From Cloeon dipterum (lineage: Eukaryota > Arthropoda > Insecta > Ephemeroptera > Baetidae): 64,000 bases of DNA. The notes beneath the pieces were generated by a model. That model saw nothing but the letters and a program-made list of their open reading frames with translations, ran no database searches and was not told the origin of the DNA. The DNA is taken from positions 22,062,501 to 22,126,500 of the forward strand of contig NC_088787.1 of the NCBI RefSeq assembly GCF_949628265.1, in the 5' to 3' direction. Every line of letters starts with the position of its first letter. Positions within the stretch are counted from its first letter, which is position 1. Of this stretch, positions 13,298-59,605 are shown in pieces. Both the position numbers and the translations under genes were made by a program.

Positions 13298-14525
13298 ACA
13301 AATAGCAAAGATCTTAAACTAGTAGTATTATTTAAAAATTAAATGCGGATCCACTGATTTGGGGAACCATCTCAATACTTAATTACCTTTAACAGTGAGA
13401 GGTTGAAACAACTTGAGCAGCGCGATATCATGCACCACAAAATTATAGGGTACGTAGGGTACATAAAATATAATTTACTTTGATTTAAAGAGAAGAAACT
13501 ACTAAAAAAGGGTCGTTTTCTTTAAATCCATATATTAAACTGCAATTTTGCTATCTTATCAATGTTGCCAATACCTTTGTGGTGTCTGTTGAACACCTTC
13601 ATGCATCTGTAATCTTAACTTCTATGTTGCTGACTGTCCCAGTTGCTTTTGCAAGCTATATGCCATTATTCTCACACGTACGTAGAAAACTAATAGTTTT
13701 ATAGTTATATGGAGATTTTAACGCATGAAAATTGATTATCTTTTCATTACGAGGGAAATTATTTCGTGTTTAATGGTAAATTTAAAGTAGATATTTTTTA
13801 TTTTAATAAAAAATTTGTTTGCGCAGGATAGTAATAAAAATTATTGCTATCGTTTTTGTAAACATTTTTGTCTCAAAGTAATACATACAGAAGACAGAAT
13901 TAGTTTAATTGGATACCGCATGCGCCATCATAGTATATTATTTATTACTATGTGTAGCAATTAAATCGTAATAGACTTATATGAGATTTTGTTAAACTGT
14001 AATTTATATTTTCTCAATTATTAAAACAACAATCAATCTGATCAAATTTTGGGAAATTTGACACTTGACAGGAAATAATAAAAGTTCGTCAAGATGGGAA
14101 TTTAAGAAGCACTACTTTTATTCACAATTACACATGATACATTATACATGATATATATATATATATATACTATCAAAAAGATATCTTGAGCTCAAGTTAT
14201 ACAACACAATTGTTGCAATTCAATTAAATTAATCTCATCCTTTGTAAATCAAATTTATGATATTATTTCAGAGGCCGCCTGCTCAAAATTTTGCTCAAAC
14301 ACTTTCAGCCTTATATTATGTATGTATTATATATACACGCACACACAAATAATTGCCACTATGGGGGTTTACTGTGTAAAACTAAAATGTGTGTACATTC
14401 AATTTTTATGTTGAAACAATACATTGCTGATGTTACTCCGTTTTCAGCTTATTTTCGAGACAGAATTAAAGCCAAATGACATTTATTGGCCCTCTGACAT
14501 ATTTTACGATGCACTGAGCAAAGTT
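13298..14525. other. Intergenic between convergent genes; one possible exon
   Basis: 13397-13451 (+) reads LKQLEQRDIMHHKIIG after an AG and before GTACGT; it may be an alternative last exon of the upstream coiled-coil gene. TTTATT at about 14116-14121 would be an AATAAA for the minus-strand gene that ends at 14526. The rest is AT-rich. Confidence 0.35.
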
Positions 14526-17489
14526 TCAGGAAACAGGAGCAGATAAAACACCCGCAGTTTCTTTTTTGCGGTTCATTGCGTAGTGGATCGTAATCTTCTT
14601 CATTCTTGAGCAAAAAATCACTTTGCATTCCTCGTCTTTGCACTGGGGAGCGTGCTCCAAAGCCAGATTTATGCTCTTGATTAATGCTAGTCTTTGACGC
14701 ATCTGCGAATATTTCCAGTAAATTTAGAAAAATAAATTATTTCAACTTTTTACAGCAGCACTGAATTTTTTTATTTGAGCATTAAGAATAAAAACAAAAT
14801 CTAAGCTGGCTCAAATATTTTTTTAATTTCAATCTTATCTCTATCTTGTTTTAACATTCTTGCAACTGGTCAAACTGGTTAAAAATTGGAATTGAATCAT
14901 CAATTTAACATTTCCAATTAATTTTTTAAATTATCTTTGCATCTTACCATCTTATCTTCTTTTGACGCGGACAGATTCTCAATCTTTGGAGTACTTCCCA
15001 TCGACTCTTCCTTCTGCTTCCCGACGCCCTGTCCTTGCGCATACTGCTGCAAAGCGATTTTCTGCTTTCGTTTTGAGCATAAAGGCACCAGACAATTTGT
15101 GTCGTGGCATTGCTCGGCGTGACGGTATGCCACACAGATAAAGTACTTGCAATCGTTACAGCTGCCGCAGTATATGAAGTGGAGCAACAACTTGGACAAG
15201 CACAAGCAACCGGGTTCTGGGCACGCCACTGAGTCACAGCAGGATGCGTGCTTAATCACTCGCACGCCGCTCTGGATGGCCTGTTCCCATCCATCTGTCT
15301 GAAGTCAGATTTGATATCAATAATAAGCAACAAAAAATTATTCCTTCAAAACAGCCTACGTGATATATTTTGGCCCGCGTAGGTGCTGGCGAGCTCTCTG
15401 TCCCCGAATAGGTATGCGAAGCGAACTGCTGACCCCAAGAATTCAGAGTCTGGTGCTGCGAAAATAGAGATTGAAATTAAATTGGTATATCACCTCTCAA
15501 GACACACACCTGCGGACTACCAGACCAGCTTGGCTGCTGTTGATGACGATTCTGAGCTACATGCTGCTGTGCGTCGAGCTAAATAAAGAGTCAAAATTTT
15601 GAACTTATCCTCAAGAAAAATTAAAAAGTAGGTTTAAACCCCCTGTAATGAATATTTTTAAGCCTTGAAATAATTCGTGTTTTTACTAGAGGTCTTAGTG
15701 GTCACGTGGTCATAGCCACCTTGACTTTGGCTAAAGGTAGTCACGCCAGTCGCCGATCAAGTCGTAAAAAAATAAAAACAGGAGGAAATTTGGTCTCCGG
15801 CCTTTTAGGTCATTAAGCACCATCAAACTTCACTTTTTAAATTTTGTCAGCGTAAATTTTGTCTGGTAAAAATTTGGCTTAAAACAGGCAGCCAGTGGCA
15901 CCGCCTCAAAATTGCGCGGCTGAGACCTTTAGTGTTTACTCAAGCAACTGACCTGCTGGACTTGATTCTCCCACCTTGGTAGCTGGTTTTCCTTCATCAT
16001 GCTGCCTTGCAGCTGCTGCACAGAGTCTAAGCCACTTTGTTGCTGCTGAAGGGTGCTCACATTTTGTAGTAAACCATGTGAGATGTCATATTGCTGTTGT
16101 GAATCCAACTGAAAATGAAATGCGGTCAGCCGCCAACTACAGTGATTTTGGCTAAGATAAGCTGTGCCAGCCACTGGACAAAAAAAAATCGCAAAATGGA
16201 AAGCTATGAAGAAAAAATTTGTTTCGGTCCCTCCATAGGCCGTTAAAACACTGTCAAACTACATATTTTTTAAGTTTTGCTAGCTGCGCCAGCATCCGGC
16301 TTATGCTGTTGAGCCAATCACGCTTACAACTTTGCGCCTTTTTTACTCAACATACCTGCTGAATTGTATTCTCCCAGCTTGGTGGCTGGTAATTCATCAT
16401 CGTGCTACCTTGTTGCTGCTGCTGCTGCTGCAGTACATAGCCATAGCCCATTTGCTGCTGTTGAAGAGTACTAATATTTTGTCGAAAGCCATGCGACATG
16501 TCACACTGCTGCTGTGAATTCAACTGAATACAAGCGAATGAATAATTAGTTTTGTTTCGTAATAGAAATTTTGGGCAACATAATTGACATTTATATGCTA
16601 ATTCTATATTGCACAACACACAATTCATTGTTACAGCTAAATTAAATAGCATGTTGTGTATGTGTAAATGAAGAGTGAAAATATAATATATCCAAGCTGG
16701 ATCTATTGAAGCCCATTTTTTTAAAATAAAGTGCTAGTTAAATACGATTGAAATTAAAATAATAGACAAACAAAAACATGTTTTCATTGGGGGGAAAATA
16801 AAAACTCGATTTTAAATTAAAACTTGACACTAACCGGCTTGACTGCTTCAGGAACATATGTCGAAAGTGATCCTGCGTTATTTGAGCGATGCAGTGATTG
16901 CAGCGTAACCCTCGAGGCCACCTGATGTTTCTGTTTCAAAATCATTTTGATTTTTATGTAGAGAGACCTGGGGCAATCATCCTTCTCCAAGCACTTCTTA
17001 AAGTAGAATCTGCACAGTCTTATTAATATCTTGCAAGGGGCACATCCCCCACTGGCTTTGATCTTGCACGTTTGATTGTGTAGCACCAACCACTTTCCCT
17101 TCCGGCAGAAGAACAGAGTGCACTTCGCGTCTTTGCACTCGAGAGCGTGCACTAGACCCTATGTCAATAACAACATGATAAATTCAATCAGTAAAAAAGG
17201 TATTTTTCTCTGTCCAGCTTTTACAATAGAGATGCTATTTTATTGCGTGTTTTTGAAGAGAGATTAAGGTTATATTAAGCGCATTCATATAAACAAAAAC
17301 AAAAAGCTGGGAAAAATTCTTCGGGATATTATTGCAGCTATAAAAACAAAAAACTGCACTTTTTAGTAAAGTGTTGATCTGTTTTATTATATTTGTTATT
17401 TTTACCTCCATTTTCAATTTCTCTGGCGATTCTGAAGCTGATTCAGTCCCCATTCCGTCAGTTGGAAGCATCTGCTGTCCGTCAGCCAT
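14526..17489 (-). CDS. CBP-derived paralogue with three TAZ modules and duplicated Gln-rich exons (gene A)
   Basis: Eight exons, all joined in phase 0, give 474 residues: 17489-17406, 17158-16835, 16523-16356, 16108-15953, 15578-15510, 15455-15360, 15298-14948, 14702-14526. Exon 1 is MADGQQMLPTDGM followed by an acidic Ser-rich stretch. Exon 2 is a TAZ2-type finger whose first two zinc sites fit (HALECKDAKCTLFFC; H-x3-C-x7-C-x2-C), while the third has lost its His and last Cys. Exons 3-6 are related Gln-rich repeats ([LN]DSQQQ..SHG..QN.STLQQQQ..WEN..QQ). Exon 7 is a second TAZ2-type finger (HASCCDSVACPEPGC.., HAEQCHDTNCLVPLC). Exon 8 opens a third (EHAPQCKDEECKVIFC) but stops early; the -1 frame continues it. 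TAZ modules bind transactivation domains in CBP, so a nuclear docking role is likely. There is no KIX or acetyltransferase domain. Confidence 0.7.
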
Positions 17490-18224
17490 CTTCGTCGGCT
17501 ATCCAAACAAAATTTACACAATTTGCTTGATTTTCAATTCGATCTTGTACGTTAATCACTTAGATGTTTACCTTTACCACAAGCACTAAATTGCTTATTT
17601 GTTACTTAAAATTGAAATGTATTTTTCAATGTTATCCAAATGCCCGAGCGCTGTATTCGAAAAATGGAAGTGTCTTTTAAAAATATCTATGTCAGCATGT
17701 CAGCAACGTCGGGCAGGGGTCGCCAGGGGTGTGCAAGAGGTCGGAACCCTGCCGTGACGTCTTCTTGGGTCTCTCACAAGAGCTTATTTCATTAGCCATG
17801 TTTATAGATAGGGATTGATGGCTTTAACTAGCCTGTCCTCAAAGAAAGGAAGAAAAGAAGAAAGCGACCTGGTTACACCATACCATACCAATTTATTGAT
17901 GACAGCGACGAACGTACAAGTATCCAAAAAGGAAGGTCTCGCGCTTGACTGAGGGAGGCTTGTGAGGTGCCTTTTGTGTATTTTCCTGAGTTTTTCTCCC
18001 TCCGCTCCTCCCTGCGGGCGCCCGAAAATTTACGTCGTTAAACATATCGGTACAAAATATTTTTTATTGTAATATCGTCAGATAAAACCCAAATCAGGAG
18101 ACGCGGCCTTTGTGAAAAATATTAACCCCTAAAAAATATAGGCTTGCCTGCTCGCGCGTCGCGAGTGGTTTGCTCGTACATTTATTGCCGTTTCACGTTA
18201 ATCTGTTCAAGAATTAGCCTGCGA
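17490..18224. other. Upstream region of gene A, non-coding
   Basis: Probably holds the gene A promoter and 5' leader. GC-richer around 17700-18010. No domain-bearing frame was found. Confidence 0.35.
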
Positions 18225-18640
18225 TCTGAAGTAAGTTACTGGCGAAATGTGCGTATCTACTCTGTGAGGGCTTGAGTACATACAGAGGAGCAAATTTACG
18301 AGGTTTGCCTGAAATTCCGCGAATTGATTTTATCAGCACTAAATGTCCAGACGAAAACTTTTCCTGGTTGTGCACTTTGTTGTAGCGTTTCTTATTATTG
18401 AAGTTATTGTATGTTTGGAAATTTTTGTCTAATAAAAAAGTCGGCAGATCGTTAGCCTGTTTGTTTGAGATGAAACGAAGTTTTCGTTGCTATTTTCCCG
18501 TTGGGGGGTACACGTGGTACAATCTTAATGCTATACAAATTGCAAAAATCCTCCATTTCCTGTGAGGTGAAATACGCAGCTAGATGCTTGTTAGAAGATA
18601 TCGTTCGTACAAATATTCTGTCACAAAGGACGAGCGAGAG
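18225..18640 (-). pseudogene. Decayed LTR-retrotransposon integrase fragment
   Basis: Read on the minus strand, about 18640-18470 encodes residues resembling the end of an rve integrase core (FTSQEMEDFC..YSIK, then a Pro- and Asn-Gly-containing stretch). In a different frame, about 18485-18225 encodes the downstream chromo/GPY-like tail (GHLVLIK..GKPRKFAPLYVLKPS), typical of Ty3/gypsy-like Pol C-termini. The frame change between the two parts and the lack of any reverse transcriptase or LTR mark it as inactive. Whether it came from an LTR element or an errantivirus cannot be told. Confidence 0.6.
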
Positions 18641-19867
18641 GCAAGTTTGCGAGGCCCTAAGCTGGCCATCGCCGCCTCGGCCGCCGGAGCCCTAGAAACG
18701 GGGACGCGTCTCCCACGTGTATATAGATATTCGTTCCGTTATAGGACTCTTAAACTTTTGTTTCTGTTTGTGTCTTTGGTATGCCTCATTACGGGCAAGG
18801 GGTATGCGCGACAAAGAATGCTTAACAATAAGAAGTGATTTTATACTTATGTATGTTTATTGTGTGCTGGTTTGCTACATGCCGGCTGCTCAGGGCTGCG
18901 AGGAGTGAGAGAGGGCTAGCTCCACTGCTTCCGCTGGTCCGTCCGTCTTTGAATATCTTGTCTCTACCGCACTCTGTTTACTCTCCTCCCCCTCCTCCCC
19001 CTCCTGCACCCCGAGCGCCAACATACATTCAGTTACAGTATAATATTGATAGCTTCCGTCAGGGTAGACCTACCCTGACATCGGAACGGGGTTTGGTTTT
19101 TTATTATGTTTTTCTCGTTTTTACATTTTTTGTAGTTTATTTGACAAAAATTGTGTGGTTGGTGTATCCTAATCTTTAATTTTCATTTCAATCTGATTGT
19201 ATATTTAAACCCTAATTAAGTATGTGTGTTAATGTGTTCAAACTTGAGTCCAAGTAGTGAGAAATGTTTACGCTTCTTAGATATGTCGATGCCATTTTTT
19301 CAAGTTCAGTTCACCGAGTTCACCTTGTTTTAAATCTAACATATTTACAAATTGCAGGTATATTTAAGTGCCTCCTCTTAATTATTTAGCCTGTCAATGG
19401 CATTTATTTTGTAAAACGATGTTACGGTATAAAGTGATATAAAATTGATAATTTTTCGTGAAAAAATTCCTTCAGGTATTTTGTTATTCAAAGGGAACAA
19501 TTCATTCTGTGCCTCTGACCAGACCGATTAGTCAAATTCCTGAGCTTTTTACCTGGGGGCTGCGCGGAGGCTTTCAGTTCGATTTCTCTTCATTATTCTT
19601 CTCCCTCGCTGGGTGTTTCTTCTATTCATAAAATGTCAATGCGAAGTCGCTCGAAAATCGGAATCCGAGCAATGCCGTAAAGAGGTTTTTGTATAACTCT
19701 TCCCGTGGAAAGGAAAAATATATATTAAAACTTGAAAACATGGAAAAGAACACGAAAAGAAAAATTTTTGAATACGCTTTTGTCCATCCCAATATAAAAA
19801 ATTCTCTATTCTACGTAGCGACTAAATAATTATGTACTACCTAATAAAGTGAAGGTTTTTATAGGTG
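18641..19867. other. Intergenic; possible flanking retroelement sequence
   Basis: No accepted gene. A near-palindrome with 10-bp arms and a 2-base centre lies at 19058-19079 (GTCAGGGTAG/CTACCCTGAC). A pyrimidine-rich tract lies at about 18985-19005. Frames at 18501-19179 lack domains. Confidence 0.35.
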
Positions 19868-20378
19868 TCATTTTGCTCCCAGTTCTTTTTCTTTTTGCTT
19901 CCTTAAAAAATATTCATTGAGAAACGAGCAGAGGAACACAGGACAACTGTTCTTCTGCTGGCCGTGACTTTTGGCGTGGTTCTTGCATTGAAGTATAAAC
20001 CGCCTACACCTGTTGCAACTCTTCACCCTGCAGCTCTTAAGGTGCAACACCGTCTGGCAGTCAAACTCTTCGCAATGCTCATCACTGCACAAGCTAGCGT
20101 GCACTAGAGAACTGTTGATGCGCTCAAAGGATTGTTCCATAGTCTCCTAAAAATGATAAATTAACTATTCAAAAATGGTTATTCCTCAATTTAAAATGGC
20201 AAAAGTTGCAGGTTTATCAATTCATAAAAGTATCTTGATCAAAATTTAATGTATCCCTTACTATTAACACGTTTGAACTTTCATCCTGTTGCTCTGTTGG
20301 GTCAATTTCTACTTCAGCCTCAATATCAAAATATTCGACCACTTGGTGAATACGTTCCTGCTGGCCCCTATCCTTCAT
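19868..20378 (-). CDS. Small single-TAZ CBP-derived paralogue (gene B)
   Basis: Two exons (20378-20262 and 20146-19868) joined in phase 0 give 131 residues. Exon 1 starts MKDRGQQERIHQVVEYFDIE and is acidic. Exon 2 is a TAZ2-type finger. From its splice acceptor to the first zinc-site Cys there are exactly 20 residues (ETMEQSFERINSSLVHASLC), the same spacing and phase as the nejire TAZ2 exon. Site 1 fits H-x3-C-x4-C-x4-C; site 2 is shortened (HLKSCRVKSCNRC). In site 3 (HAKSH..CPVFLC) a His stands where CBP has Cys, which could still bind zinc. It ends in a Lys-rich tail. A more distant upstream exon is possible because the Met at 20378 is not strongly marked. The role is inferred to be docking of transcription-factor peptides. 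Confidence 0.68.
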
Positions 20379-21660
20379 CGCCTGTTTGTTGCTGTAGGCC
20401 AACTACTTGGATCACTGGTCACTGTTCCTATCGATGGCAAAATCGGCAAAATCATCAGTGCTTTGGGTATTTAAGTGTTGCTTCTCATTAGAATGAAAAT
20501 CTTGTATCTCACGATCCTTACCACACCCACTTTGGTCGACAGAGAGAAAGAGATATCAAAAAAAAGGAACATGCATCTTAAAACTAGAACATCCCTCTGC
20601 AGAAAAATTAAAAGATGATGAGAGTTGCATAATGAATCGTGTCTTTGTTCGCTTCTACTGCATTGGTAAAAAATAACTGTCATATTCGAAATCTCATAAA
20701 TTCCTGAAATGTGATTCTTTTCACTGCCTGCAACAATTGAGAATTTTCCCCAGCAGGAATGTTACTACTAGAATGACGACCTTTTTTATGTAATTTCCTC
20801 TCAATTTGATAAAAAAAATTAAACATTAAAAAATGCTTGATTATGATTTATTAAGAAAATACATAAACGGCATATTATTCATAGCAACCAACACCTAAAA
20901 TGGCAAAAGCTTAAAATTTTAAATCATATAGTTTTAATCGTTTAAAACTGAAAGCGGTAAAAATATTTACGATGTTTATAAGAAGCAGCTTGAAGTTCGA
21001 GACATAGGTGGTTTATCAAATTCATGAAGATTAGTACACATGGTGTAATAGAACAGTGATGTTTTTAATGAATTTTAAAAATTAAATGATTTAATTAAAA
21101 AATTGATAATATGAAAACAAATCGTCAGGATGAAAATTTAGCAAGATTAAAAAATATCAACTAAAACTAGAGCGTCATATACGCCAAACTGTGAGCCGCA
21201 CAGCGTTGGTTATGAGTCAGCTAGAGAAGGTAAACCAAATCTTCTCTGCTCTTATATATATATTTGGAAACGAGGACGCTTCTGTGCCTATTTGTTGGAT
21301 TTATTTCTTATTTCATCCATAAAATTTGTTGCTTCACAAAACAAAAATAAATTGTAGAATAAGTGCAATAAAATACCTAAAAATTATGTGAGTGGATGTT
21401 GTGCTATAGGTATAAACTCAATAAAAACATGTGTGTAAGCCAAAGCATAGATTTTTACTGATCTTGTAAGGTTTTTTAGTTAAATTGGCTTGAGACTAGG
21501 TTTGACACGTAATTATTCGAAAAGATAATAATTTATTTTATATGTTGTATCACTATGAATCGGATGACCGCAGCGAACCCTTGAACCCTTCCTGTTGTTT
21601 TTGCTCTTCAACGTACCTTATTATTGCACACGCGCGCGTAAGCTTTCTCTAAATGCAGTT

Positions 21661-21960
21661 TTAACAACTGGGTATTTTGAGTTGTTTTAACTGCATCATC
21701 AGGGGGACAAGGTCTGTTAATTCTAAAAATGCAATGTGCGTTTTTACGACCTTTTGCATTTCCGTTTGATTTTGCCCTGAAGCAGCTGATCTCGCCCATG
21801 TTTTCACATTCTCTACACAATTCGTTAGCCTTGCAATACTGTCAGTGATTTCGGTCAAATCTGTGATCTTGACTTCCGATCCTCGATTTCACCCACAAGA
21901 AATGCAGCGCGAGCGGTTTTCAAGTCGTCTCTCAAAGCCTAAGTGTTTTGTTTCCGATAT
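21661..21960 (-). pseudogene. Frame-broken coding fragment, family unknown
   Basis: On the minus strand two adjacent frames look coding. The first is LRDDLKTARAAFLVGEIEDR. The second, in another frame, is a helical stretch (DLTEITDSIARLTNCVENVK ... KTHIAFLELTDLVPLMMQLK) ending at a stop. Joining them needs a one-base change, so this is either a pseudogene or two exons with an unseen junction. No domain is recognised. Confidence 0.25.
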
Positions 21961-22109
21961 CAATTAATGCAACGGGATTCACATTCTAACTTGACATAAT
22001 CATCAGTTGAACGGCCAAACTCAATGTTTAGCCGTTCCACCTTGAACTCAAATTAAATTGAAAACTCAAATCTCAAATCTTAATCAAGTTCACACAAGAA
22101 AATCTACTG

Positions 22110-22672
22110 ATGAACGGTCAATCAAATTTCTTTAGCGCGCAGTCCAACAAATCAGACGCGGAGTTTAAAAATTTGGAGCTGCCGACGCCGACACTTTGTG
22201 AATTCAATAAAAAATTGTTTTCAATTTTGGGACACCATACTTGCGATACTTGCATGGTGTTATATATTAAAGAGGAAAGATACTGCAAAAGCCTGGAAAA
22301 TGCTTGTTGCCAATGCATAAAGTAATCCCTTAGAACTCAGTTAAAGCCTAAATTGACTTTAAAGAAGCACTGTAATTTTTTGAGAAAATTGTTTGCAAAG
22401 TTACCATGATTTTCAAATGGTAATGGCTGTCTCCTTACTTGAAATCCGATTTAATTTTGAAACCAAGAGTTTCCCCAAAAAGTGGCATACACCGTTGGAC
22501 AGATCTCGACGAGAGGAATCGAAAATATGCGCAGAAAACATGTCCAAGCACTGTAAATTTTAGAGAAAATTGTCAAAATTTGAATTTTTATTGTAGGAAG
22601 GTCCTTTTTTACTATTGCAAATTATTGGCGCAGATAATCACTTCTTACTATGGTCATAGACAGCTAAAATGA
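22110..22672 (+). CDS. Possible small Cys-rich gene, two candidate exons
   Basis: A first frame (22110-22322) reads MNGQSNFFSAQSNK ... HHTCDTCMVLYIKEERYC..ACCQCIK, with clustered Cys. A second (about 22439-22672) reads LKSDLILKPRVSPK ... CQNLNFYCRKVLFYYCK to a stop. A weak donor (AAA|GTAATC) follows the first. No known finger pattern fits. It lies head-to-head with the broken minus-strand fragment at 21.7 kb. Confidence 0.22.
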
Positions 22673-23482
22673 TAAAATAATAGGTTATGAATCGTTTATA
22701 ATTACTTAATTATTTTATTTCATTGTGATAAGGAGAAAATATTCAAGGCTGTGCAAGACTGGACATTTACGCATCAAATTGCTATTTTTAAACTCCCCCA
22801 TTACTGACAAATTTTCTGACTTTCTTACTACATTTTTTCAGGACACTTGGCTGCCTCATAAAATTCCATTTTAGATTTATTCATTCCGATCACACTGTGG
22901 GTACGTGGAGCCGTGACAGAAATGCATCTTTTAATAGCTTAAGTCTTTTATTCATGTCTCGTGGTTGAGGTATCAGTAATCAAGATCAAGATCAAGGCTG
23001 TGAAATTACATAAATAATCAAAATCACATTTACAACAAATAATTATAACAATAAAAACATAAAATTACAATTATGACACTTACCCCGTAGTGCGGATCTA
23101 ATTAATTCGAGATCAAAGTTTCTAGAACAACCTCGCACGAAAACTCATCCTAGCCAGAGAGAGAATATTGTGTTGCGACTGCTGTCGTGCGAGGCTTAAG
23201 GTGCAGTGGGGGGAGAGGGTGCAGTAAGGGTGCACTGCTTGTCACACACCTTAATACTGCCACCTAGCGATACAGGTTAAATGCAACACGAACACTAGTT
23301 ATTAGGAAAGTAGTGGCGAGGAGGCATTTTTGGTGAAAGTACAGCGCATCCCTACAATTTCACACTTTACTCATTTTATTCGATAAATTTCTCATGCTCA
23401 TATACTTTTGCTACTATATCATACTACTTTTACTCCAAATATGAAATCTAATAGAATTTGAAAAGATTACATCACCATGTGG

Positions 23483-23485
<3 letters not shown>

Positions 23486-23523
<38 letters not shown>
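23486..23523. repeat. (CT)n microsatellite
   Basis: About 18 CT units; GA on the other strand. Confidence 0.95.
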
Positions 23524-23525
<2 letters not shown>

Positions 23526-23547
23526 TATTCCGATTAGTTCCTTTGTT

Positions 23548-23770
23548 TGCACCCTAACCTGGCTATCTAGGGGCGATGATAACGAGTCAACCGGTCCGCA
23601 GTTTTTCAAATGCGATAAATAGAAGCCGATATTTGGTAAAAAAGACGTCATTTCCCACACATATAGGACACCACATAAGAATGAAAAAAATATTCCAACC
23701 AATCTCGGGTTCTAACTTTCACAATTACAAAAACTGCATGTCGTTCGACTCATCTTCACGTTCCATCTAA
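23548..23770. repeat. Family X element ends (right end, then a left end)
   Basis: 23548-23620 (GATGATAACGAGTCAACCGG..GCAGTTTTT) matches the right end of the 3727-4152 element. 23705-23768 (GGGTTCTAACTTTCACAATT..) matches its left end. The order suggests two elements abutting, or a rearranged copy. Confidence 0.45.
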
Positions 23771-24145
23771 AACCAAGATGATGCGATAAACACTCGATTC
23801 CGTCGGGGACTGAGAATGCAAACAGCAGAAAATCGAAGAAAATTTTTTTTCGTGTGCAGGGTGCATAGTTTAGGTCTTTTCCCTTTCTTTTGCATGTCAT
23901 CGTTTTATTTTCAAGGAAAATTTTATTGCATTTTTATGTAAATGTATCGGGACTAAAAAAAACTGGAATATATTTACCTGTCAAAATTAAATTCTCTATT
24001 AACTGATCCACATATTGACTTTGTAAAAACTTCAAGGATGAATATTTGACAGGATTTAAAAAAAATAAAACATGGCGAGTAAATTTTGTGTAAAAATAAC
24101 AGAGATCTTAATCTTTATTCTAAAACGTTCATTCATTCCTTTAGG

Positions 24146-24672
24146 CTAGTTTTTAATGTCTGCTGATGCTGCTATGTTGCTATTCTTTCTTGTTTCTTCT
24201 CGCTTAATTCTGAAAAATAGCATAGAAAAGAAGATCAGAAAAATATTAAGAACGCAAAAAGAGAATATTGCCGAAGAACGAGCCGCCCGTCCTTTCATAA
24301 AAATAGACGCAGGTACAAGGTATTTTTCCGCATTAATATATATCTAGAAACTGAAAAAATTAAAAAGTACGATGTATATCTTTAAACTTACTCTTTAAGA
24401 AATTTGCGTAGGTTGATGTACCTGTGATACATTTCTGGGGTGTTTTTCATGATCTCTGCCGATCGCAGAATTTTCTCTTCAGAACTCAAATCGTCAGACT
24501 GCAATACTTTCAAAAGGGATTCAAATGCCATCTGGTATCGTAAGATTTCCGCGGGAGCCAGCGTCCAACTCACTCTAGTCCAACTGCTAGGCTCCAGATC
24601 AGTGGCCAGCTCCATCACTATCTTCTCAAGCTCGTCAGCGCCCATCATTCGCAGTTTCTGTAAACTGTGCAT
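24146..24672 (-). CDS. Small protein with a KIX-like region (gene F)
   Basis: Two exons (24672-24392 with a strong GTAAGT donor, and 24209-24146) give 114 residues in one frame. Residues about 30-95 can be laid on the CBP KIX domain. A Trp near the start (SSWTRVSW), a helix (APAEILRYQMAFESLLKVL), and above all the last helix (AEIMKNTPEMYHRYINLRKF) parallel KIX helix 3 ([20 protein letters not shown]). The loop between helices is shorter than in KIX. A basic tail (EIKREETRK) follows, as EEKR follows KIX in CBP. The intron is not at the CBP position. It lies on the same strand within the run of TAZ/KIX genes, which supports the reading, but similarity is low and a chance helical match is possible. 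Confidence 0.42.
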
Positions 24673-27480: not shown

Positions 27481-27909
27481 AGCCCGTTGGCTCGCATTGT
27501 TAAGGCACTCTCAGGAGTGTCAAAGCAATGAGAGGTATTTGAGCAGTTCGGAGATCTAATACTGGCTACCCAATGTCAGAAATGGCAAAAAGTGGTTAGT
27601 TTAGTGACTCGAAATGCTCAAATTGCTCAACGGGCTGGGAGGCGCACCGGCGCCGACTCGCTACTTGCTGGTTTGCACCTTTCCACCATGCGTGATTTGG
27701 CTTCACGGGACGAATGTCTAGCGTTTCAATGCAGTCCTCGGTGCGGAGGCAAGTGGCCCTTGAGTGGGCTGGGTCCCTGTGCGGCCTGGTGCGCCCATGT
27801 TATCCGTTCGCGGTGTTATTGGGACCCCGGTTTCAGCATTCGTGCTAATGCAGTGCGCACCCTTCCCGGTCCTCCGGTCCTCAGACAGGGATAAAGAGAG
27901 CAAAAAAAA
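27481..27909 (+). mobile_element. SINE-like repeat with tRNA-like head and A-rich tail
   Basis: The start (TTGGCTCGCATTGTTAAGGC) resembles a tRNA D-arm and RNA polymerase III A box. A weaker B-box-like segment (GCAGTTCGGAGATC) follows about 55 bases on. The 3' part (27744-27909) is about 97 percent identical to bases 1-166, and both copies end in an A-rich tail. A 100-codon frame inside is attributed to the repeat, not to a gene. Confidence 0.65.
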
Positions 27910-29658: not shown

Positions 29659-31644
29659 ATGGATTTTTTTCCACTCGCACCATCCTTTTTGCAGAGATGT
29701 CTCTTAGTGGATAGACGCGGAAAAAGAGGAAAGTTATTAAACAGAAGGTAACTTTTAAGAATATATTTGATTTTAAAAGTTAATATAAAAGTTTTACAAT
29801 GTAGAAGCTCTTTTGCGAAGACAATGGACTCGTTCATGAGCGAGCGGAACATAATTCACTTCATCGAAAAGACAACAAAAGGTCTGACCCTGCTGATGAT
29901 CGCAGCCAGGGATGAGAACCTGGAAAGCTGCCTCGCTCTCTTGAAAAGTGGAGAAAGTGCTGAAGTGAGGACAAACTTTGGCGTGACGCCTCTTCACTTC
30001 GCGGCCTTGAACAAGAAAAACGGAATCGAAATCGTCTGGCACCTCACAACCCAGGAGAAACAAGACGTGAAGCAAAAGGACGTGGATGGCGAGGAAGCGA
30101 TTTTTTACGCAGTCAGGGTGGGAAACTTCAGGGTGGCGCAGATCCTGCTTGAGCTGCGAGAAAAGACAAACAATAATCTCTTGCATTTTTGTATAACTCA
30201 AAATAGATCTGACGACGTCGCTCAGATAATTCACGCGTGGAACCCGAGTTTAATTAAAGAGGTCGACTCAAATAGGAGAAATGCCCTTCACCTGGCAGCT
30301 CAGTTCGCCGACCTGAGAGTCTGCAAGTGGCTGATTGCCGCGGGCATCGACGTATCATCAAACAGCTTTTTAGGGACAGCCTTGCACCGCGCACCGTTAA
30401 ATAAAAACCACGGATTGGAATTAGTTCGGTTTTTCGTCTCAAAGAAACTAGACTTAAATAAAAAATCAGAGAGCGGATTTGTGCCTTTGGATGCAGCTCT
30501 TGCAGAGGAAAATATTGACATTGCTTCGGAACTGCTGAGACTCGGCGCCACTTTGCACATAAAAGACCATAATTTTTTGCTGCATTGCGTATTGGTCAAC
30601 AAGCTGAATTGCGTCAAGTTCATTCACGGATTCGATAAAAGTCTGATCAGAGGTGAAGCCGCACTTCACATAGCGGCGGAGTTTGCTGATCTAGAAATGT
30701 GCCGGTGGCTCGTGGAAAACGGCGTCCGAACGGATTCTTTGAATGGAAAATGGCAAACCTCAATTTTGCATCACGTCGGCTACAACAAGAGGCATGGAAC
30801 TCAGCTAGTTCGGTATTTTTTCCACTTGGGTCTCGACATGAACAAGCAGGACTTCTATGACTTCACTCCTTTAAGCTACGCTTTGGGAGACAAAAATTTT
30901 GATGTGGCAGAGGAAATGCTGATATATGGGGCCGATTTCTACGCGATAAACGATGGCATGAACATTTTCCACGTCTGCATAATGGAAAACAATTTAGAAG
31001 GCGTCCAATTCGTGCTCTCAAAGGAGCCAAAAATAATGAATTCACTCGGGAAAGATGGGACGAATGCCCTTCACATCGCAGCGGCTTTCGCAGATTTAAA
31101 AATGTGCCAGTGGCTGTCATGCGGAGAGAAATTCGATGTTTTGTCCCTGAGTAAGGAGATGCGAAACACGGTCCTTCACTACGTCGCAATGAACAAAAAG
31201 TTTGGAAAATCACTCGTCCCTTTTTTCGTTTCCAAGGTAGTGAATGTGAATGAGAAAAATATTTTCTCACTCTCGGCCTTTTACGTTGCCCTCTATATGG
31301 AAAACATCGCCGTGGCTGAGGAATTGTTGAAGGCTGGTGCAGACATGAATTTAAAATCGAAGCGCAACAACAATGTCCTGCAATTCTGCGCTCGTAATAA
31401 TAAAATCGTGAGTGCCAAATTCGTGATTGGATTAAATGAAGGGCTGGTCAGGGAGCCGACCTTAGGAGGGGTCACTGCCCTTCACTTGGCGACGAAAACG
31501 GTGGATTTGGAGTTTTGCAAATTTTTGGTCGAAAAAGGGGCCGAAATATATGCCAAAGACTTTCTTGAGCGTTCGGTTTTGGTATATGTTCCGAGAAAGA
31601 ACAAAGAAAAGAGGAACTTCCTCTCCTTGGGAGTTGGAAATTAA
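29659..31644 (+). CDS. Ankyrin-repeat protein with a four-ankyrin higher-order repeat
   Basis: Exon 1 (29659-29747) and exon 2 (29805-31644) join in frame over a 57-base intron to give 642 residues; the ATG at 29824 would give a 606-residue form. Nearly the whole protein is ankyrin repeats (NALHLAAQFADLRVCKWL, TPLHFAALNK, ALHIAAEFADLEMCRWL). They are arranged as a block of four distinct ankyrins of about 126-137 residues. In order the block reads: ALH.AA.FADL..C.WL; LH...NK..G..LV.FF; a PL..AL..EN.D.A.ELL unit; and N.LH.C...N....V.FI. The first unit starts at 30280, 30658, 31063 and 31474, and a diverged block precedes these. Ankyrins mediate protein binding; no signal peptide, membrane span or effector domain is seen. 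It may have further 5' exons. The family is unassigned. Confidence 0.9.
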
Positions 31645-31698
31645 AGAAGCCTGGAGAAGCTGTATGATGACTATTTATTTTCTCTCATTAGGTTTGAC

Positions 31699-31704
31699 AA
31701 TAAA
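31699..31704 (+). other. Poly(A) signal of the ankyrin gene
   Basis: AATAAA, 55 bases after the stop codon. Confidence 0.7.
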
Positions 31705-33360
31705 GTGCATTTGTTTTAATTATTTTTTATATTTTCTTAAATAGTGGAGCAGTGTTGGAATATATATTAAAGAAGAGGAATACATCAACGCATTCCAAAA
31801 ATTGTTTATTTTCTCAATCTATCATCGGAATTAAACCAGGCAACGTTTCTTATAAACAAAAAGTTTATTTAAGACCCTCTATCCAGTCAGACAAAGCCAG
31901 CCGGATTGAGCTCATAAATGCATAATCCATTTAAAGCATCACAAAATAAATCACACTTAAAACCTTTTTCTATTACGTGTACGCGTCATGCAGAGAGATG
32001 GAAACCGTGCCGACGAGCAGTCGCGGGTTGCATGCCATTCCACCATTTATTTGAAGAAAGTCGAAAAGTTATTTCTATATAGGCTGCCGAATTTCAAGCT
32101 CACAGCCTGCAATGGATAAAAACGCCTAGCAATAATGGGGTTTGATTTTCATCAAATAGTGAAACTTGTTGCAGGAAGATTACGAGGGATTGAAAGTAAA
32201 ACACGGTCAAATGAACATGTCAAAATTGAAAATTCAAATTTGATGTTGATGAAAATGACGCAAGGGAAGTAATTATTTCCTGAATAATCTGAAAAATTAT
32301 CTTTAAGATAGGTGTGGTGCGCATTACTCTTTAATTAAAGCTCATCGTGTTCAAATCAACAAAATAAGTAAAAAAATCGCATCTTATTGGACGTGCAAAA
32401 TAACAACCGGCACTAAAGAAGTGTCTTGCGGCACAGTTTCCTTCCTTGTTTAATGCCTGTGTGATAGGATAATTTTGGTTCAATCACAAATTTTTTTAAT
32501 GAGAGGAAAGGTTTCTATTCAGAAAGCCAATAGAGGAATGCTCCACTGTTGAAATGAAAAGCATGCGTTATGTTTCCTCGTTGGTAATATTCACTTTAAT
32601 ATATATATATATACTACTGATACTCGCAACGCACGAGGAAACACAATGTCCGAGAAAATATTTGTCTTCGCCCGCAGCTTTCTTATTTCCATATTTTAAA
32701 TTGAGTAGAATAAATTATTTGTAAAAACTCAGAATTACTGCTGTTTTCGTAATCAAAAGTAATATTAAAAGTTTTGGCATTTCAAAATAATTGTTTTTTT
32801 CGATCAGGCCAAGACAGTCTTGTTGGTCAGTGCCCTTGAAGCAGTGCATCAAGATCATTTTGAGTAGTATCGTTATAAAAAATTCACTTGCATTATTTTC
32901 ATCATTTTCCTTCATCGTTTGTTCGGAATTTTTCTTCATTGATCATTTAAGTCGAATCATGGGCTGGAATGCAGTCAAAGAAGGTAGTCATGGTGAAGAG
33001 CGATATAGGGTCGTCTTCATCAGGTGTAGCGGGAGGTGGAGAGAATATGTTTAAGAATTTCAGCCATTATCGCACATTAAAAGTACTAATTTAATTTTAC
33101 TAGAATAACCGTGGCCATTTCATTCAAGCAAAACTTCAATATAAACGCATAATCTGCGTACCTTTTGAAACTGTGCCATATACAGATCTCAGGCTCCCAA
33201 GTGGACGTCCCTACTCTAAAGCAGTCCTCCCAAATTCAAGTGTTTGAAAAAAAAATTAAAAAAATATTATTTTTATAATTGAAGAAACACTGACAAAACG
33301 AGTTGTTCGGTTTTAAAATGCAACTGTAGAAAATTAAAGAAATGCGGCTTTTGTTTTAAG
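31705..33360. other. Intergenic, no gene supported
   Basis: A minus-strand frame at 32715-32939 (starts MKKNSEQTMKENDENNASEF) has somewhat protein-like composition but no domain or splice partner. A short AT run lies near 32600. Confidence 0.35.
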
Positions 33361-33366
33361 TTTATT
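33361..33366 (-). other. Poly(A) signal of gene D
   Basis: TTTATT on the plus strand, i.e. AATAAA on the minus strand, 20 bases past the gene D stop at 33386. Confidence 0.6.
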
Positions 33367-33385
33367 CCAAGTCAATGCAACAATA

Positions 33386-35895
33386 TTATTCGATTCCGTC
33401 CATGACCTCAAACTTATCCTGCATGTTCATAAGGGTTCGCTCAATCACGTTAGGAATTGAAGACCAATCAACAGCAACATAAATCTTCAACTGATCCAGC
33501 TTTCTCTGCTGTACCAAAGCTAGAGAGACAGGTAAAGATAGCATACCCATTTACAATCCACCACTGCAATTGCAGAAATGATTTTGATGCTATTTTTCCC
33601 AAAACAGAAAATAATAAAGCAATTATAATTCGTATGGAAAAGTAACATTTTGTACCTGTTGGTTTAGATTAGGCAATGTCATCCTCGGTTTTTTTGGAGG
33701 TAGAAGACCCGCCATTGAGGGCAGTTGGTCAATATTTCTTTTGTTGTACTTTATTGTAAAGGGTAAATTACGCCTTGTAGCTTTGATAGATCGTTCTGGA
33801 ATGGAAATAATTACAATGAGGATTGTATAATGTGTTGAAGATAACTAACAATTAAGACCATTTAAAATTTAAAAACAAATAAAAGTGTTTCCATTATAGT
33901 TTGAAACATTTTTTTCTTTAAAATAAGGGTCGCAAATTGACAATAAATTCCACCAATATCTTGGGGATCGGTTTTGTGTTAAGAAAAATGAACGATATTC
34001 TTACCTTGATCACTTTCCATGTTGTAAATCTTGTTCGCAATTAGACAATGATAGTCATGCTGCTTGCAAAGCAAATATATGAGCTCAATTTTGTAATTTT
34101 TATTTAAATCATGACCCACCTTACTCGTAGCCATTTTAAACATCTCAAGTTCAATTTTCGCAGCTTGTCTTGCAAACTCACTCATTCGTATGTTCCTTGG
34201 GATCACCAGTTCTAATTCATATGGAGTGGAAGCGAGAACAGTAAATCTGAAAAATCAAATCCATTACGTAAACATTTTAAATTAAATTCGGCTCCACTCA
34301 CATTTTCTGGACAGTGTAATCCCGAAATTCTAGCCTGACCTCTTTGTGCCACTCCTTGCCTATTGGCATAGGTCCTGCCTCGATATCTGAAAATTAAAAG
34401 ATGTAAAAAATACAACCAACTCAGCTTTTGGATACACTGACCTTTCACTTTCCATGGGGTTGGCTGCTGCATCAGTTTCCGTTTTATCTTGGCGCAGAAG
34501 GCCAAAGGAACCCGACATTTGTCCCCCATATCGCAGTGCTTGACGTGGCGTTTGCACGAACGATCTATTATCCTGCAGGTAGAACATTTGTTTTGGTCTC
34601 TGAGCGTGCAGGCCATCCTGTGCCGCAACACCACCTTTGTCTCCTGACAAATAGGGGTGCATGGCTCTTCGTTGCACCGGAAAGAATGCGTCACCCTCAA
34701 AGCGAACTGCTCATGTGATCTCATCTGCAGTATAAAAAATAAATTAAAATGGTTAATATTAGCAGGGTTTGGAAAAAGGGTGAGCGCAGTAGTTAAATTA
34801 ACAAAAAGACTTCTGAGCAGGTTTTTTTCTGGAAATAACGCCCTTTATTAATTGTTTGTTTTGAAAGATACATGGTATAATACTGAATAACAGGCGCACC
34901 CCCTACTATCTTTGAAATATTTATAGAAAATCAAATAATTATTTTCCCAAAAAATATATTGTGTTCACAAAATGGGCCTATATACTGGACATTTGATTGA
35001 ATTGATTGAATGATCAAATTTTTCTTCAGGAAAATAGATAATTTAAATGGAATATATGAAAAACCTGATGGAAAAATCCTATGTACTAGAGAAGATCCCA
35101 TTTCCTCTCATGCGTGCAAGGTAAACTGTAATTTTACGAAATCCATGTATGTTGCACACACTTTGTGTTGCTTAAATAAATCGTAACCTTGCAGCCTGTT
35201 TCAACCGGTTATAATAACAATAAAATATTCTTTTTTGCTAGATATTACCTTTTGGATGGCATAACACAGGTCCAAATTTGTTTTCATTAATGTCATTATA
35301 ATTACCTAATCATATAATAACATTTTTAATTAAATGGTGTCCTGGTTTAGATTTTACACACTGAAGTTTCCATACTTTCACTATATTGCATTAGTGTCGT
35401 TTTCAAGTGTGAACAACACATATTTTTTTAGCTTAGGAATTAATTTATTAAAAAATCAACACTGAAAATATTTATGATTTTTTTCTATTTGATTAAAATT
35501 TTCAAATATTACTGAATAAATATTTTGAGGTTTTGATAACTATTTTCCAAGTCACAGAAGATTGATCAGAACTACTTTAGTTGAAAGCTTTGCCTCTAAT
35601 AGCTGAGACTTACAAATTTTGAATGATTTTGTAGTTTCAAAGATTAAGTAAAAAATAATGAAAATTCACAATTACTTTTTTCCCTCTAGGAAAACCAACT
35701 GTGGGAAAAAACTGGACGGGTATAGTTAAATTTTGTGAACCCTGATAGTAAGATCAGACGTATATAAGATTTAGAAAAATTGGCAATTACCATCTTCTGT
35801 TGTTGGTTGAGCCATCCATTATCATCAGCCGGCTGCTGTTCAAGCTTTGCCCTTGTCAGAACGTACTGTTGCTTCTGCTTACCAGGTTCTTGCAT
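33386..35895 (-). CDS. CBP-derived paralogue with TAZ2 then KIX (gene D)
   Basis: Seven exons give 305 residues: 35895-35791, 34724-34442, 34386-34302, 34246-34120, 34059-34005, 33795-33656, 33508-33386. Exon 2 holds a TAZ2-type finger: site 1 HSFRCNEEPCTPIC; site 2 HRMACTLRDQNKCSTC with the exact CBP spacing; site 3 HVKHCDMGDKCRVPLAFC. Exons 3-5 encode KIX: GKEWHKEVRLEFRDYTVQKI matches [22 protein letters not shown], and HDYHCLIANKIYNMES matches [16 protein letters not shown], keeping the Ile-Tyr. The KIX introns fall in the same codons and phases as in nejire, and the helix-3 exon is 55 bases in both genes. The 60-base intron 34119-34060 has no stop and keeps frame if retained (325 residues). 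A basic Pro-containing region and an acidic tail follow. It is probably nuclear and probably binds activator peptides. No catalytic domain. Confidence 0.85.
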
Positions 35896-36828
35896 TTCTG
35901 CTGCTTAAAATAAAAATATTACCAATTTAAACCATTCAACTTAAAATATGGTCAGCTTTGTCGTGGAAATATAACATATGCGTGAGCACCGGGCAGACCG
36001 ACAATGACTGATTTCAGGATTTTCTCTCACAATAACGTTGTTGAAATGTTGAGGCAATGCGTATCAGTATTCATTGATCAATTTTCTATTATACGAATAA
36101 CAGGTTGTGGGGTAAGACCTTTATCTTTATAAGGTATTCAATATATAAATGTTACTTGCATGCCTTGCTTGTTTCTCATTTCACGACAGTTTCTTGTTTA
36201 TAGGGGAGGAGTCAAAGATCCTAGGGAAGAACTCAGGGTTGGCGCCCTGAGCACAACTAGGATTGGCTCATTACTAACACATTTGGGCGCAGAGGGCGCG
36301 AAAGACACGTCGTCGAGAAATTACCCGTGTTTTTCACGGAAAGAATCACTGATATGATTTTCCACTATTTTGCAATTTTTTTTTTGTATCAGCTAAAATT
36401 AAATGCGTTGTTGCGATATGTTTTTTTCGTAGTTTTATAGAAGACATTTCTGTAAGAGTTTACAGGGAAAAACAGCTCATTGCTTTATAATCCAATTAAA
36501 TTTCAACTGAAAATATTTATGACACAATATCCTTGTGTAATCTTGTAAATATTTAGCACCTAACGAAATGCAATTTATTTGTAGATTTTTAAAAATAATA
36601 CATGTTGGACAGCTAAAATAAAATTATTTTGAATGTGCCACTGATTTAAAAAAAAGTTTTTCCAGTATAAATATATTCAATAAAATTGTACACATCCTTC
36701 TCCTATTTATAGCACAGCAGGATCTATTCGGTGTTGACTTAAACAAGCGCTGAAAGTGATTGAGAAAGAGCTAAGAATTTTTTTATTCTTTTTTTCCCTA
36801 GAAAATAAGAACAATATTGGCATGGTGT
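35896..36828. other. Gap between genes E and D
   Basis: Holds the putative gene D promoter and leader, and the 3' end of gene E (TTTATT near 36780 would be an AATAAA on the minus strand). No other gene is seen; frames at 36160-36357 lack domains. Confidence 0.4.
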
Positions 36829-39800
36829 CTACTTCGAGTCAGCCAATCTGCGAGCTCTTAATTTGGCGCGAGGACAGGTGATGCGGCTTGTGGGTAGAGT
36901 CGCTTTATGAGCTTCAGCTTCTTGCTGCACTACTGTCTCTTTTTCCATCTGGTCATTGGTACTTTTGTTGGAAAACCTGGCACTGACCCGTGCCACTTCC
37001 CCTTTAATAAATGAGCAATAGGGCATCGGACAATCGGTCTTGTTGCACCGTCTCACATGGAGGCTACACACTGCGAATGAAGGCCTGCACACCTTGTTGC
37101 AGCCGCCCTTTTCCCTGTACTCGCAGACTCTGGAATGTTGCACGAATCTCTTTGCTGGATCGCATCCACGCTTTTTGCAGTTTGAGTCTCCGCATTCAAT
37201 CGCGTGCTCCAGATTAAGTACATAATCTTCGATGGCAAACACTTTCACTTTCTGAAAGTAGATTAGTATTAGTAATTGCCATCATTGTCCTTCCCTATTA
37301 TGAGATTTCAAAAAATCATGCAATCACAATTTTGTTTTGCAAGAATTATTGGCCTTTGAGCAAAGCAAACAAATTAATTTTGTAAATGTTTGTGAGTCGT
37401 TGTAATTATACAACAAGTAATGGTGAAAACGTGAAAACCAATGATATTTAATCAGAAACGAAGAGAGTCTGCATTCATAATTTCACAATGAAAAAATAAA
37501 TTCTCAATTAAATATATGTTGGATTTTTAATTTATTTCAAAGTTTTTTCCAAAAATTTCTCCGCCCGTAATTAAAAACTGTTGCTTGAGAAACTTTTGAT
37601 CAGTAAATCATGTTTAAATTACAAAACTGTACACGCTTGATGTGGAAGAAATGCATGTTAGAGCGAAAGGATTGCGGGGTTTCCTTGAAAGTAAAATTGT
37701 AGACTATCTTAATAGAAACAGTTGATGTGCTTGTGACCCGTTGGAAGAAACATGAATTTTATTAATTTATTTGCCTTGAATTCTTTTGATTTAGTTCTGC
37801 TAATTTTGATAAACCATTCCTTTAACCTCCTCATGTCAACATTTAATACTCATATTTGCAATTAACTAGGGAAAACAGCAACGTGACTTACGCTATCAAT
37901 CTGTTCCGTTTTGTTGGGTGCGTGGGAAACAAGTATGATTTTGCTCTCAGAATTATCGCAGGGCTTATCCACTTCCTTCTGTCCCTCTTGCTGATCAGGC
38001 GGAGCAGGAGTAACCTCATTCTGTTCATGAGTTGTCGGGGCCTCAGGTTTAACCGAAGGTGTATCAGGTCGTACCTCTTCGAGTTTTACTGTTGAGGTCT
38101 CTGATATTTCAGGTTGTGTCGTGGGGGCCTCAGGCAGGGCCGTCAGATCTTCGGGCTGCACCTGTTTTTCCTCACTGGTAGATTCATTGACATCCCTGCG
38201 TATTGCCATCTTAGATGCCACAGTTTCACCTAATGCACTCAAATCTTTGGCAATCTTCTGCACTTTCATATCTGTATAACAAAAAAATTTAAATTTGACT
38301 ATGATTTAATTTTAAAAATCACTCACTGCATATATACTTGTGAAAATTTTCAGCAAATAGGAAGTAATATTCACCCTGCAAGCAAAACAAAAGCAATTTT
38401 AGCACCTGGTAATCTGTTAAGCGGTTCAAATCTAACCTCTGAGTTTGCCTTTTGATAAGCGTCTTCTTCCAAAGTATTAGTAGAGAAAATGAAATCTCTC
38501 ACACTAGAAAAATAAGGTCATAGCTATTTTTTGACTGTTGAAATCACCACTTACAATCCAGCCGCTAAATCATCCCTAAAATCTTGAGTAATCAACATTT
38601 TCCACTTGTTTGAACCTTTTGCAGACCCTGCAGAAGTCCCTTCAGACGAGGACAAGACACCGTCAGTTGAACCCTGCTCATGTATTTTAGACACGATTCA
38701 AAACAAATAACTAGCAGTCATTTTTACTTACATTTACTCCATCTGAAGTTAGATTGCTTGTTTCGGCAGAGTCGGTGCTCGCCTCAGTCGACTGCTTTTC
38801 CTCTCGAATGAATGCCGCTTTCCTCCTCAAACGAGTTGGTCGGCCTCGAGCACTGGCTCTATTTTTCGGCAGTTTCGGCACATTTATCCGTGAGACAGCT
38901 GATTTATTCACTCCTGGCGCTGCTGGTACGTGTTGTGCTCCGGTAAACTGTTCAGCCAAAACTGTTCAAACACATTTATTTGAAATTTAACTATCCCATT
39001 TTACAGTACTAGCTGCTTACGATACAACTTGTCAAAGAAGCTGTATTCCTTGACTGGCTTTTCTGGTATTTGGCGCATGGAGCCAGGCAATAATCTGCGT
39101 GTAATGTTGCAAAAATGCACTGGGCACCATTTTAGTTGGCATGTGGACACGTGGTTCAAAAATAATTCCATTGCCTCGAAACTCAAAGATCCGCACTGGA
39201 AAAGGAAAGAGAGAATTATTTGTTCACTTACTTTCCGTTTTCTATTTGAGAAGATAAGCAAAGATTTGAAATGTTACAATGTTATATTTCATTAAATGGA
39301 AAATTTAAAAGTTTAATCTATTGTTAGGTGAAGTCCTCAAAAATTTAGCAAAATAATTAAATTCCTAGTATTTCAAGGAAATAATAATTATTAATTGCTA
39401 ATAATTTAAAAGCAACATAAATTAATTATAGGATTTTTCAGCCGAGTTTCATCGACACACTCCAATCTTTGTGTCATTAACCCACTAAACAAGGCAGTAC
39501 ACACAATGAAATTGAAACGAACTTCATTCTCTAGTTATTGCTTAAAAAATTTCTCACTCTAACAAATTTTGGCAGCTTTGACTTCGCATGACGAAATCAA
39601 ATCAAGAAATATTTTCTACTTTTATTTTGTTTGTCTTAAGATAACTCGCTACTGTGACGCCGAAACTCTCAAGTAGCTAGTACAAAATCTGTTTCAAATT
39701 CATCATGGATTTATTGCTGACCAACAATAAATTCAAGCACTCTTCTTTCTCAAGAATCTTCCAGGATTAAAATGGGGCATACCTCATATAACTCCTGAAG

Positions 39801-40315
39801 TTTCCGAATATTTTGCCTCTCTTGGCATTCATCAAATTTCCTAAATAGCTGAGTTTCAAGCTCATGAAGCAAGGAGAGTTTTTCTTGCTGCAAAAGTTCT
39901 TTCAACTGCAGGAACATGTTTGAGATTATTCCCCTCATCACATTCCGTGGTTTTCGAGGCTGAGACCGATTCATCGGCTTCCTGAGGTTCAACTGACTAC
40001 GCTTGCTCCTGCAAAATTAAAAGTCTTATTTGTCTTATTACATACAGTATATACAGATTAAAACATTTAAAAGAGCAAATTGTTAAATGGAAGGTGACCT
40101 TTAAATATTAAACATTCAGTTGCTAAGACCTAATATCTAGCTTCAAATTGTTATTTTTCAAGCCAGATTGGAAGCTTACAGCGAATGCTATGGAAACAAT
40201 ATCAAAATTTTTAGCAGTTACAAAGTGAGCGATCAAATTGTGGCCGAGCGTCAAAACACTATCATGGCTTGATCACCTAACATTATGACATTAAAACAAC
40301 CTACTGGCTCATCAT
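36829..40315 (-). CDS. CBP without its enzymatic core: TAZ1-like, KIX, TAZ2 (gene E)
   Basis: Nine exons in one frame give 559 residues: 40315-40305, 40008-39783, 39195-39021, 38961-38732, 38673-38555, 38503-38437, 38375-38327, 38271-37892, 37251-36829. Residues about 40-110 resemble TAZ1 (EKLSLLHEL..FDECQER..LFLNHVSTCQLKWCPVHFC against CBP LNHMTHC..CQVAHC); the first zinc site has lost its His and one Cys. Residues about 234-302 are KIX (NKWKMLITQDFRDDLAAG; ANSEGEYYFLFAENFHKY). A Glu/Pro/Thr-rich linker follows. Residues about 420-505 are TAZ2, with HAIECGDSNCKKRGC, HSRVCEYREKGGC and HVRRCNKTDCPMPYC. Domain order equals CBP with the bromodomain, RING/PHD, acetyltransferase and ZZ removed. 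The KIX introns and the TAZ2 exon start share phase with nejire. The 11-base first coding exon is the least certain part. Confidence 0.84.
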
Positions 40316-48087: not shown

Positions 48088-48124
<37 letters not shown>

Positions 48125-59379: not shown

Positions 59380-59414
<35 letters not shown>

Positions 59415-59568
59415 CTGCATTTGCTGCTGTTGCTGCTGCTGGGAATTGATCAGATTATTATTGAACTGCTGTTGCTGCTGCTGTTGCTGGGCAGCTGCAA
59501 ACTGCGAAGGGGCAGTGGTGTTTGGCGTAGCCAATCTACTCTTCATCAAATCTGAGAATTGCTGCTGC

Positions 59569-59605
<37 letters not shown>

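Follow-up and report, generated by a model that had tools for sequence, protein, structure and literature searches.

The stretch of 64,000 nucleotides analysed here (the window) corresponds to positions 22062501-22126500 of contig C2 in the genome of the mayfly Cloeon dipterum (190 Mb, 10 contigs); coordinates given without a contig are those of the window. It contains the CBP gene nejire and, within 33 kb downstream of it and on the same (minus) strand, a cluster of small genes, most of which carry peptide-docking domains of CBP (TAZ1, KIX, TAZ2) only. The five minus-strand gene models proposed by an earlier sequence-only reading were recovered, with GT/AG at every internal junction:

14449..17489, minus strand: gene A, three TAZ2 copies and glutamine-rich (Q-rich) exons
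17489-17406, minus strand: exon of gene A
17158-16835, minus strand: first TAZ2 exon of gene A
16523-16356, 16108-15953, 15578-15510 and 15455-15360, minus strand: Q-rich exons of gene A, the first two alike by eye
15298-14948, minus strand: second TAZ2 exon of gene A
14702 on (14.45-14.70 kb), minus strand: third TAZ2 of gene A
19868..20378, minus strand: gene B, exons 20378-20262 (uncertain) and 20146-19868, a single TAZ2 with a shortened loop
24146..24672, minus strand: gene C, exons 24672-24392 and 24209-24146
33487..35895, minus strand: gene D (LOC135936770), seven exons, TAZ2 then KIX
35895-35791, 34724-34442, 34386-34302 and 34246-34120, minus strand: exons 1-4 of gene D
34059-34005, 33795-33656 and 33519-33487, minus strand: exons 5-7 of gene D
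34442..34724, minus strand: TAZ2 exon of gene D, matching p300 TAZ2 in PDB (4.9e-9) and nejire TAZ2 (7.9e-7)
34005..34386, minus strand: KIX of gene D, three exons, intron phases as in nejire
36829..40315, minus strand: gene E (LOC135936769), nine exons in our own model, a TAZ1-like part, a short KIX and TAZ2
40315-40305, 40008-39783, 39195-39021, 38961-38732 and 38673-38555, minus strand: exons 1-5 of gene E
38503-38437, 38375-38327, 38271-37892 and 37251-36829, minus strand: exons 6-9 of gene E
39021..40008, minus strand: TAZ1-like part of gene E, two exons with a phase-0 join at the nejire TAZ1 position
38327..38673, minus strand: KIX of gene E, three exons, intron phases as in nejire
36829..37251, minus strand: TAZ2 exon of gene E, 12 of 12 zinc ligands by eye

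The claim that all five genes carry TAZ or KIX holds for A, B, D and E and fails for C, and KIX is confined to D and E. In the Pfam search, zf-TAZ was detected above the cut-off in E (5.6e-13) and in A (2.6e-14, three stretches), and KIX in D (2.7e-9; 9.4e-11 using the RefSeq splice). No Pfam TAZ match was obtained for D or B and no Pfam KIX match for A, B or C; B, however, matched the nejire TAZ2 (2.7e-5 and 1.4e-5). The KIX of E remained below the curated cut-off (0.11), as did that of its relative P0005 from a second C. dipterum assembly (0.0014). The TAZ1-like part of E reached 32 bits with the TAZ1 exon profile and is devoid of the third zinc site, while one ligand spacing in its TAZ2 is one residue longer (both by eye). 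In gene D the module order is reversed, TAZ2 preceding KIX. The D protein, for which the start of the fifth exon and the entire last exon were set from the RefSeq protein P0001, is 100% identical to the NCBI entry 'uncharacterized protein LOC135936770 isoform X2'; the RefSeq isoform of E omits 18 residues within the eighth exon. For gene C, neither TAZ nor KIX was detected and there was no Pfam match at all. Its Smith-Waterman score with nejire KIX was reached by 3778 of 5000 shuffled sequences, that with nejire NCBD by 7 of 5000, and its NCBD profile score by 19 of 2000. Judging from these alignments, gene C may at best be NCBD-like.

The parent gene is composed as follows:

47457..64000, minus strand: nejire (CBP), continuing upstream of the window to TAZ1
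C2:22126848-22127671, just upstream of the window: TAZ1 exons
within 63374-62937: KIX exons
58190-58513: bromodomain
57083-57415: PHD
55787-57182: HAT
within 55366-55632: ZZ
52923-52420: TAZ2
within 50723-51343: NCBD

In the window, the nejire exons for KIX, bromodomain, PHD, HAT, ZZ, TAZ2 and NCBD are open, and the Pfam models Bromodomain, PHD_P300, HAT_KAT11, ZZ, zf-TAZ, Creb_binding and KIX all match exons of this gene. The absence of a catalytic domain from the small genes was confirmed: HAT_KAT11 was not found in them and has a single match in the whole genome (one of two candidates), which is nejire, as is the single genome match of Creb_binding. Likewise, tblastn with the nejire bromodomain, PHD/RING-region, HAT and ZZ exons yielded no match outside nejire across the window and 22 further regions fetched from the genome. 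The small genes are docking-only genes without the enzyme part, and their model frames are open except in the last domain of A.

Genes A, B, D and E, together with a distant array described below, derive from nejire by partial duplication, in agreement with the earlier view of non-enzymatic CBP relatives. The positions and phases (2, 0, 1) of the KIX introns are common to nejire, D and E, and TAZ1 is split at phase 0 directly before the same cysteine in nejire, E and one array gene. The TAZ2 exons of nejire, A, B, D and E all begin in phase 0 and near the same place, the first zinc cysteine following after 17-21 residues in nejire, B, D, E and the second and third copies of A, and after eight residues in the first copy of A. 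Because the KIX intron positions and phases were kept, D and E are partial copies made at the DNA level; an origin as retrocopies is ruled out by the kept introns. Recent copying is also seen at nejire itself, where 1390 bp around the TAZ1 exon recur 12 kb upstream with 87% identity (C2:22138619-22139530). This upstream copy is itself partly repeated. The copied parts observed are docking modules, plus a UBE2Z-like piece near C3:34.30 Mb.

A UQ_con gene (43.65-44.17 kb), UBE2Z-like by eye, is located between nejire and the cluster, together with open reading frames (ORFs) at 41.7-42.9 kb. At C3:34303758-34304709, a UBE2Z-like fragment (51% identical, with a stop in the printed part) immediately precedes a nejire-like KIX; neighbours in the window, the two occur together in a dispersed copy as well, with their order swapped. 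This KIX (C3:34.304 Mb) scored 23.9 bits, below the cut-off, and 25.5 bits in a second search.

The family is not a local one of five genes, as had been thought. Pfam zf-TAZ gave 48 exon-level matches genome-wide, and iterated exon profiles, applied to the window and to the 22 regions fetched, located 59 distinct TAZ places on three contigs (the two of nejire included, gene B excluded). Scores below 24 bits were obtained for six of these, three being TAZ2 copies confirmed separately and three coming from the profile search alone. A single array of 92 kb at a distance of 15 Mb (C2:6.784-6.876 Mb) holds as many as 33 of the 59. The array gene that was read in detail has the composition TAZ1 - linker - TAZ1, and P0003, a relative of the array protein in the second assembly, is 57% identical and has two TAZ stretches. 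Within the array, the segments C2:6830366-6834225 and 6836256-6840114 form a nearly identical tandem pair with a spacing of about 5.9 kb, the product of a very recent duplication. More TAZ2-type copies were identified at C2:31.98 Mb (one of them 60% identical to nejire), C1:29.50, C3:7.33 and C3:6.87 Mb, and a divergent TAZ1-type subfamily at C2:30.67 and 31.70 Mb, apart from the main array.

The zinc ligands of the TAZ1-type copies are under constraint. In 37 such copies, 357 of 362 zinc-ligand cells were identical to nejire, compared to 444 of 1498 other cells. A stricter set was built from 36 of the 59 places (at least 50 bits and at least 47 codons), from which two identical rows, nejire and a near copy of nejire were left out; in the remaining 32 copies the values were 312 of 316 ligand cells and 403 of 1302 other cells. 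Eight recent TAZ1-type pairs differed at 1 of 78 ligand versus 78 of 323 other positions (P=1e-7). For D and E, both annotated in RefSeq, relatives exist in the second assembly on contigs of 2,327,155 bases, P0002 for D (77%) and P0005 for E (78%). Among 519 aligned residues of E and P0005, 77 differ; the differences amount to 9/73 in the TAZ1-like part, 5/48 in KIX, 9/87 in TAZ2 and 17/51 in the tail, and concern 1 of 18 aligned cysteines. UniRef calls P0003 and P0005 'histone acetyltransferase'. No HAT domain was found in either, and the domains of these TAZ proteins do not bear the label out.

To account for the family, it is proposed that DNA-level partial duplications of nejire seeded separate genes of TAZ1, KIX, TAZ2 and perhaps NCBD. 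One branch would be the cluster downstream of nejire, and the largest the TAZ1-TAZ1 array on the same contig. The products would retain the zinc-binding fold without the acetyltransferase and would most likely bind activation-domain peptides, either the ligands of nejire or a diverged subset. By such binding they could act as competitors of nejire or join partners to one another and, in this way, tune CBP-dependent transcription. Expression, ligand binding and competition with nejire are presumed here, and action as competitor or adaptor is plausible by analogy with cbp-2 and cbp-3 of Caenorhabditis elegans. In its favour are the shared intron phases, the single HAT match in the genome, the annotated status of D and E and their second-assembly relatives, the kept zinc ligands and the nematode precedent. 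For this explanation as a whole, docking-module genes from partial nejire copies whose products bind activation-domain peptides in competition with nejire or so as to link partners, the chances are about even.

Several observations weigh against it. The first TAZ2 of A has lost the third zinc site, the reading frame of the third breaks inside the domain, and in B a His replaces a Cys of the third zinc site (by eye). The KIX of E is devoid of about 20 middle residues and, by eye, has a His at what we take to be the Tyr658 position. The designation 'isoform X2' that D and E both bear in RefSeq is a database name only. Among as many replacements as separate E from P0005, about 4.6 stops would be expected without constraint and the annotated protein has none, an argument in favour of the explanation that is weakened because an annotated protein cannot show stops. 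A block of 19 residues is missing from P0002 inside TAZ2 and from P0005 at the KIX start; these gaps are either real deletions or predicted introns hiding lesions. Furthermore, the one-ratio omega of 28 array-type copies was 0.56, indicative of weak constraint, and in sequence searches of limited sensitivity every relative obtained belonged to C. dipterum (for D 2 of 179 scored candidates, for E 2 of 7995, for the array protein 1 of 839).

Exon and non-coding change were compared on array-type copies, of which close ones often show pairwise dN/dS near or above 1. A fast clade comprises C3:5135516, C2:6830366/6836256, C2:6842144 and the frame-broken C2:3782664. For its four copies, minimum changes numbered 100/487 in three exons versus 28/380 in introns and upstream DNA (P=2e-8), or versus 11/169 in introns alone (P=6e-6); without the frame-broken copy, the remaining three gave 85/487 versus 19/380 (P=5e-9). 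In the pair g5135/g6836, the replacement rate (0.158) exceeded the silent (0.090) and non-coding (0.026) rates. Within clade I, an excess was detected in one of three pairs (replacement 0.131 versus non-coding 0.048, P=0.001), while its other pairs and clades II-V showed no exon excess, non-coding change in II-V being equal or higher. Since the excess is limited to one clade and one clade I pair, the signs of diversifying selection concern part of the family only.

A further role, in a genetic conflict, is suggested by the fast clade. Docking-only proteins, the TAZ1-TAZ1 type above all, might be decoys that intercept viral, symbiont or selfish proteins hijacking the TAZ and KIX surfaces of CBP, conflict driving rapid change of the surface around a conserved zinc core. 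As an alternative to the competitor or adaptor model this is rather unlikely. It would fit the excess of exon change, the rates of g5135/g6836 and the tandem array with its very recent duplicates, and binding of E1A to the TAZ2 of CBP/p300 is stated in the abstract of PMC10475075. On the other hand, the excess is restricted as described above and the fast clade includes the frame-broken g3782. To our knowledge, no pathogen ligand is known. A more far-reaching version, a birth-and-death family of tens of enzyme-free TAZ proteins whose surfaces diversify on a frozen zinc core and shield CBP or its activators from a viral or selfish hijacker, appears quite improbable.

A similarly low probability is assigned to the possibility that nejire fragments were copied by chance and are drifting to pseudogenes. 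Frame breaks in the third TAZ2 of A, in g3782 and at 6814164, half TAZ domains or exons at some array places (6830859, 6836749, 6842638), replacement rates not above non-coding rates in clades II-V and the many pairs with dN/dS near 1 are what decay would produce. Against it stand the zinc ligands, kept even though 70% of the other cells changed, and the free model underlying the omega of 0.56, which fits better (lnL -2855.3) than omega 1 with kappa 2 (-2870.2; two more parameters in the former). Open frames and canonical splice sites in D and E and their annotated relatives in the second assembly also speak against it. Short, fast-evolving tandem duplicates of general regulators are common among testis genes, and by this analogy the family could comprise testis- or ovary-expressed docking-only CBP relatives specialising gamete gene regulation, which is compatible with the recent array duplicates and clade rates but seems quite improbable. 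No pointer to the gonads is contained in the sequence.

Other features of the window include an ankyrin-repeat ORF of 630 residues on the opposite strand within the cluster (29752-31641, plus strand; Pfam Ank_2 3.3e-59). A repeat of about 166 bp occurs at 1-166 and 27744-27909 (97% identical), with inverted copies upstream of the window, and looks like a mobile element. A second dispersed repeat (22267-22627, 42177-42463 and also upstream of the window) is 75-90% identical.

The small genes have in common with CBP/p300 (nejire, KAT3) the TAZ1, KIX and TAZ2 modules and intron positions. By contrast, no HAT, bromodomain, PHD or ZZ was found in them. CBP is sensitive to gene dosage, and genomes usually retain one or two copies of its gene. 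Plant BTB-TAZ (BT) proteins resemble the mayfly proteins in possessing TAZ without HAT and differ from them by the pairing of TAZ with BTB. One enzyme accompanied by dozens of separate docking-domain copies is a natural experiment on the partitioning of activators between a cofactor and its potential competitors, and hints at an endogenous set of CBP competitors or decoys; the accelerated exons allow asking what drives change on its docking surfaces. Among the literature matches listed, none describes an expansion of TAZ domains or CBP fragments in mayflies or in any other insect, and the scale, the new orders of modules, the array of TAZ1-TAZ1 genes and the acceleration of exons are unreported there. 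A term search for TAZ, CREB, nejire and p300 gave zero hits in the main text of Almudi et al. 2020 (PMC7250882) and in PMC11491810. As a kind, HAT-less partial CBP copies are known from nematodes. According to PMC10320766 and PMC10743222, cbp-2 and cbp-3 of C. elegans, formerly termed pseudogenes, are HAT-less partial copies linked to cbp-1, all within 160 kb; cbp-2 has the first zinc finger and KIX, the two sources conflict on whether cbp-3 retains the first zinc finger or KIX, and RNAi of cbp-2 or cbp-3 alters some reporters. The mayfly genes are likewise linked partial duplicates of a parent CBP gene without HAT. Unlike the three cbp genes in 160 kb, they belong to a family with 59 TAZ places on three contigs and include TAZ2-based genes, a TAZ2-KIX swap, a TAZ1-KIX-TAZ2 gene, a TAZ1-TAZ1 array and fast exons in one clade. 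The two families are probably separate in origin. The mayfly family extends the case of cbp-2 and cbp-3 to an insect and to a far larger scale.

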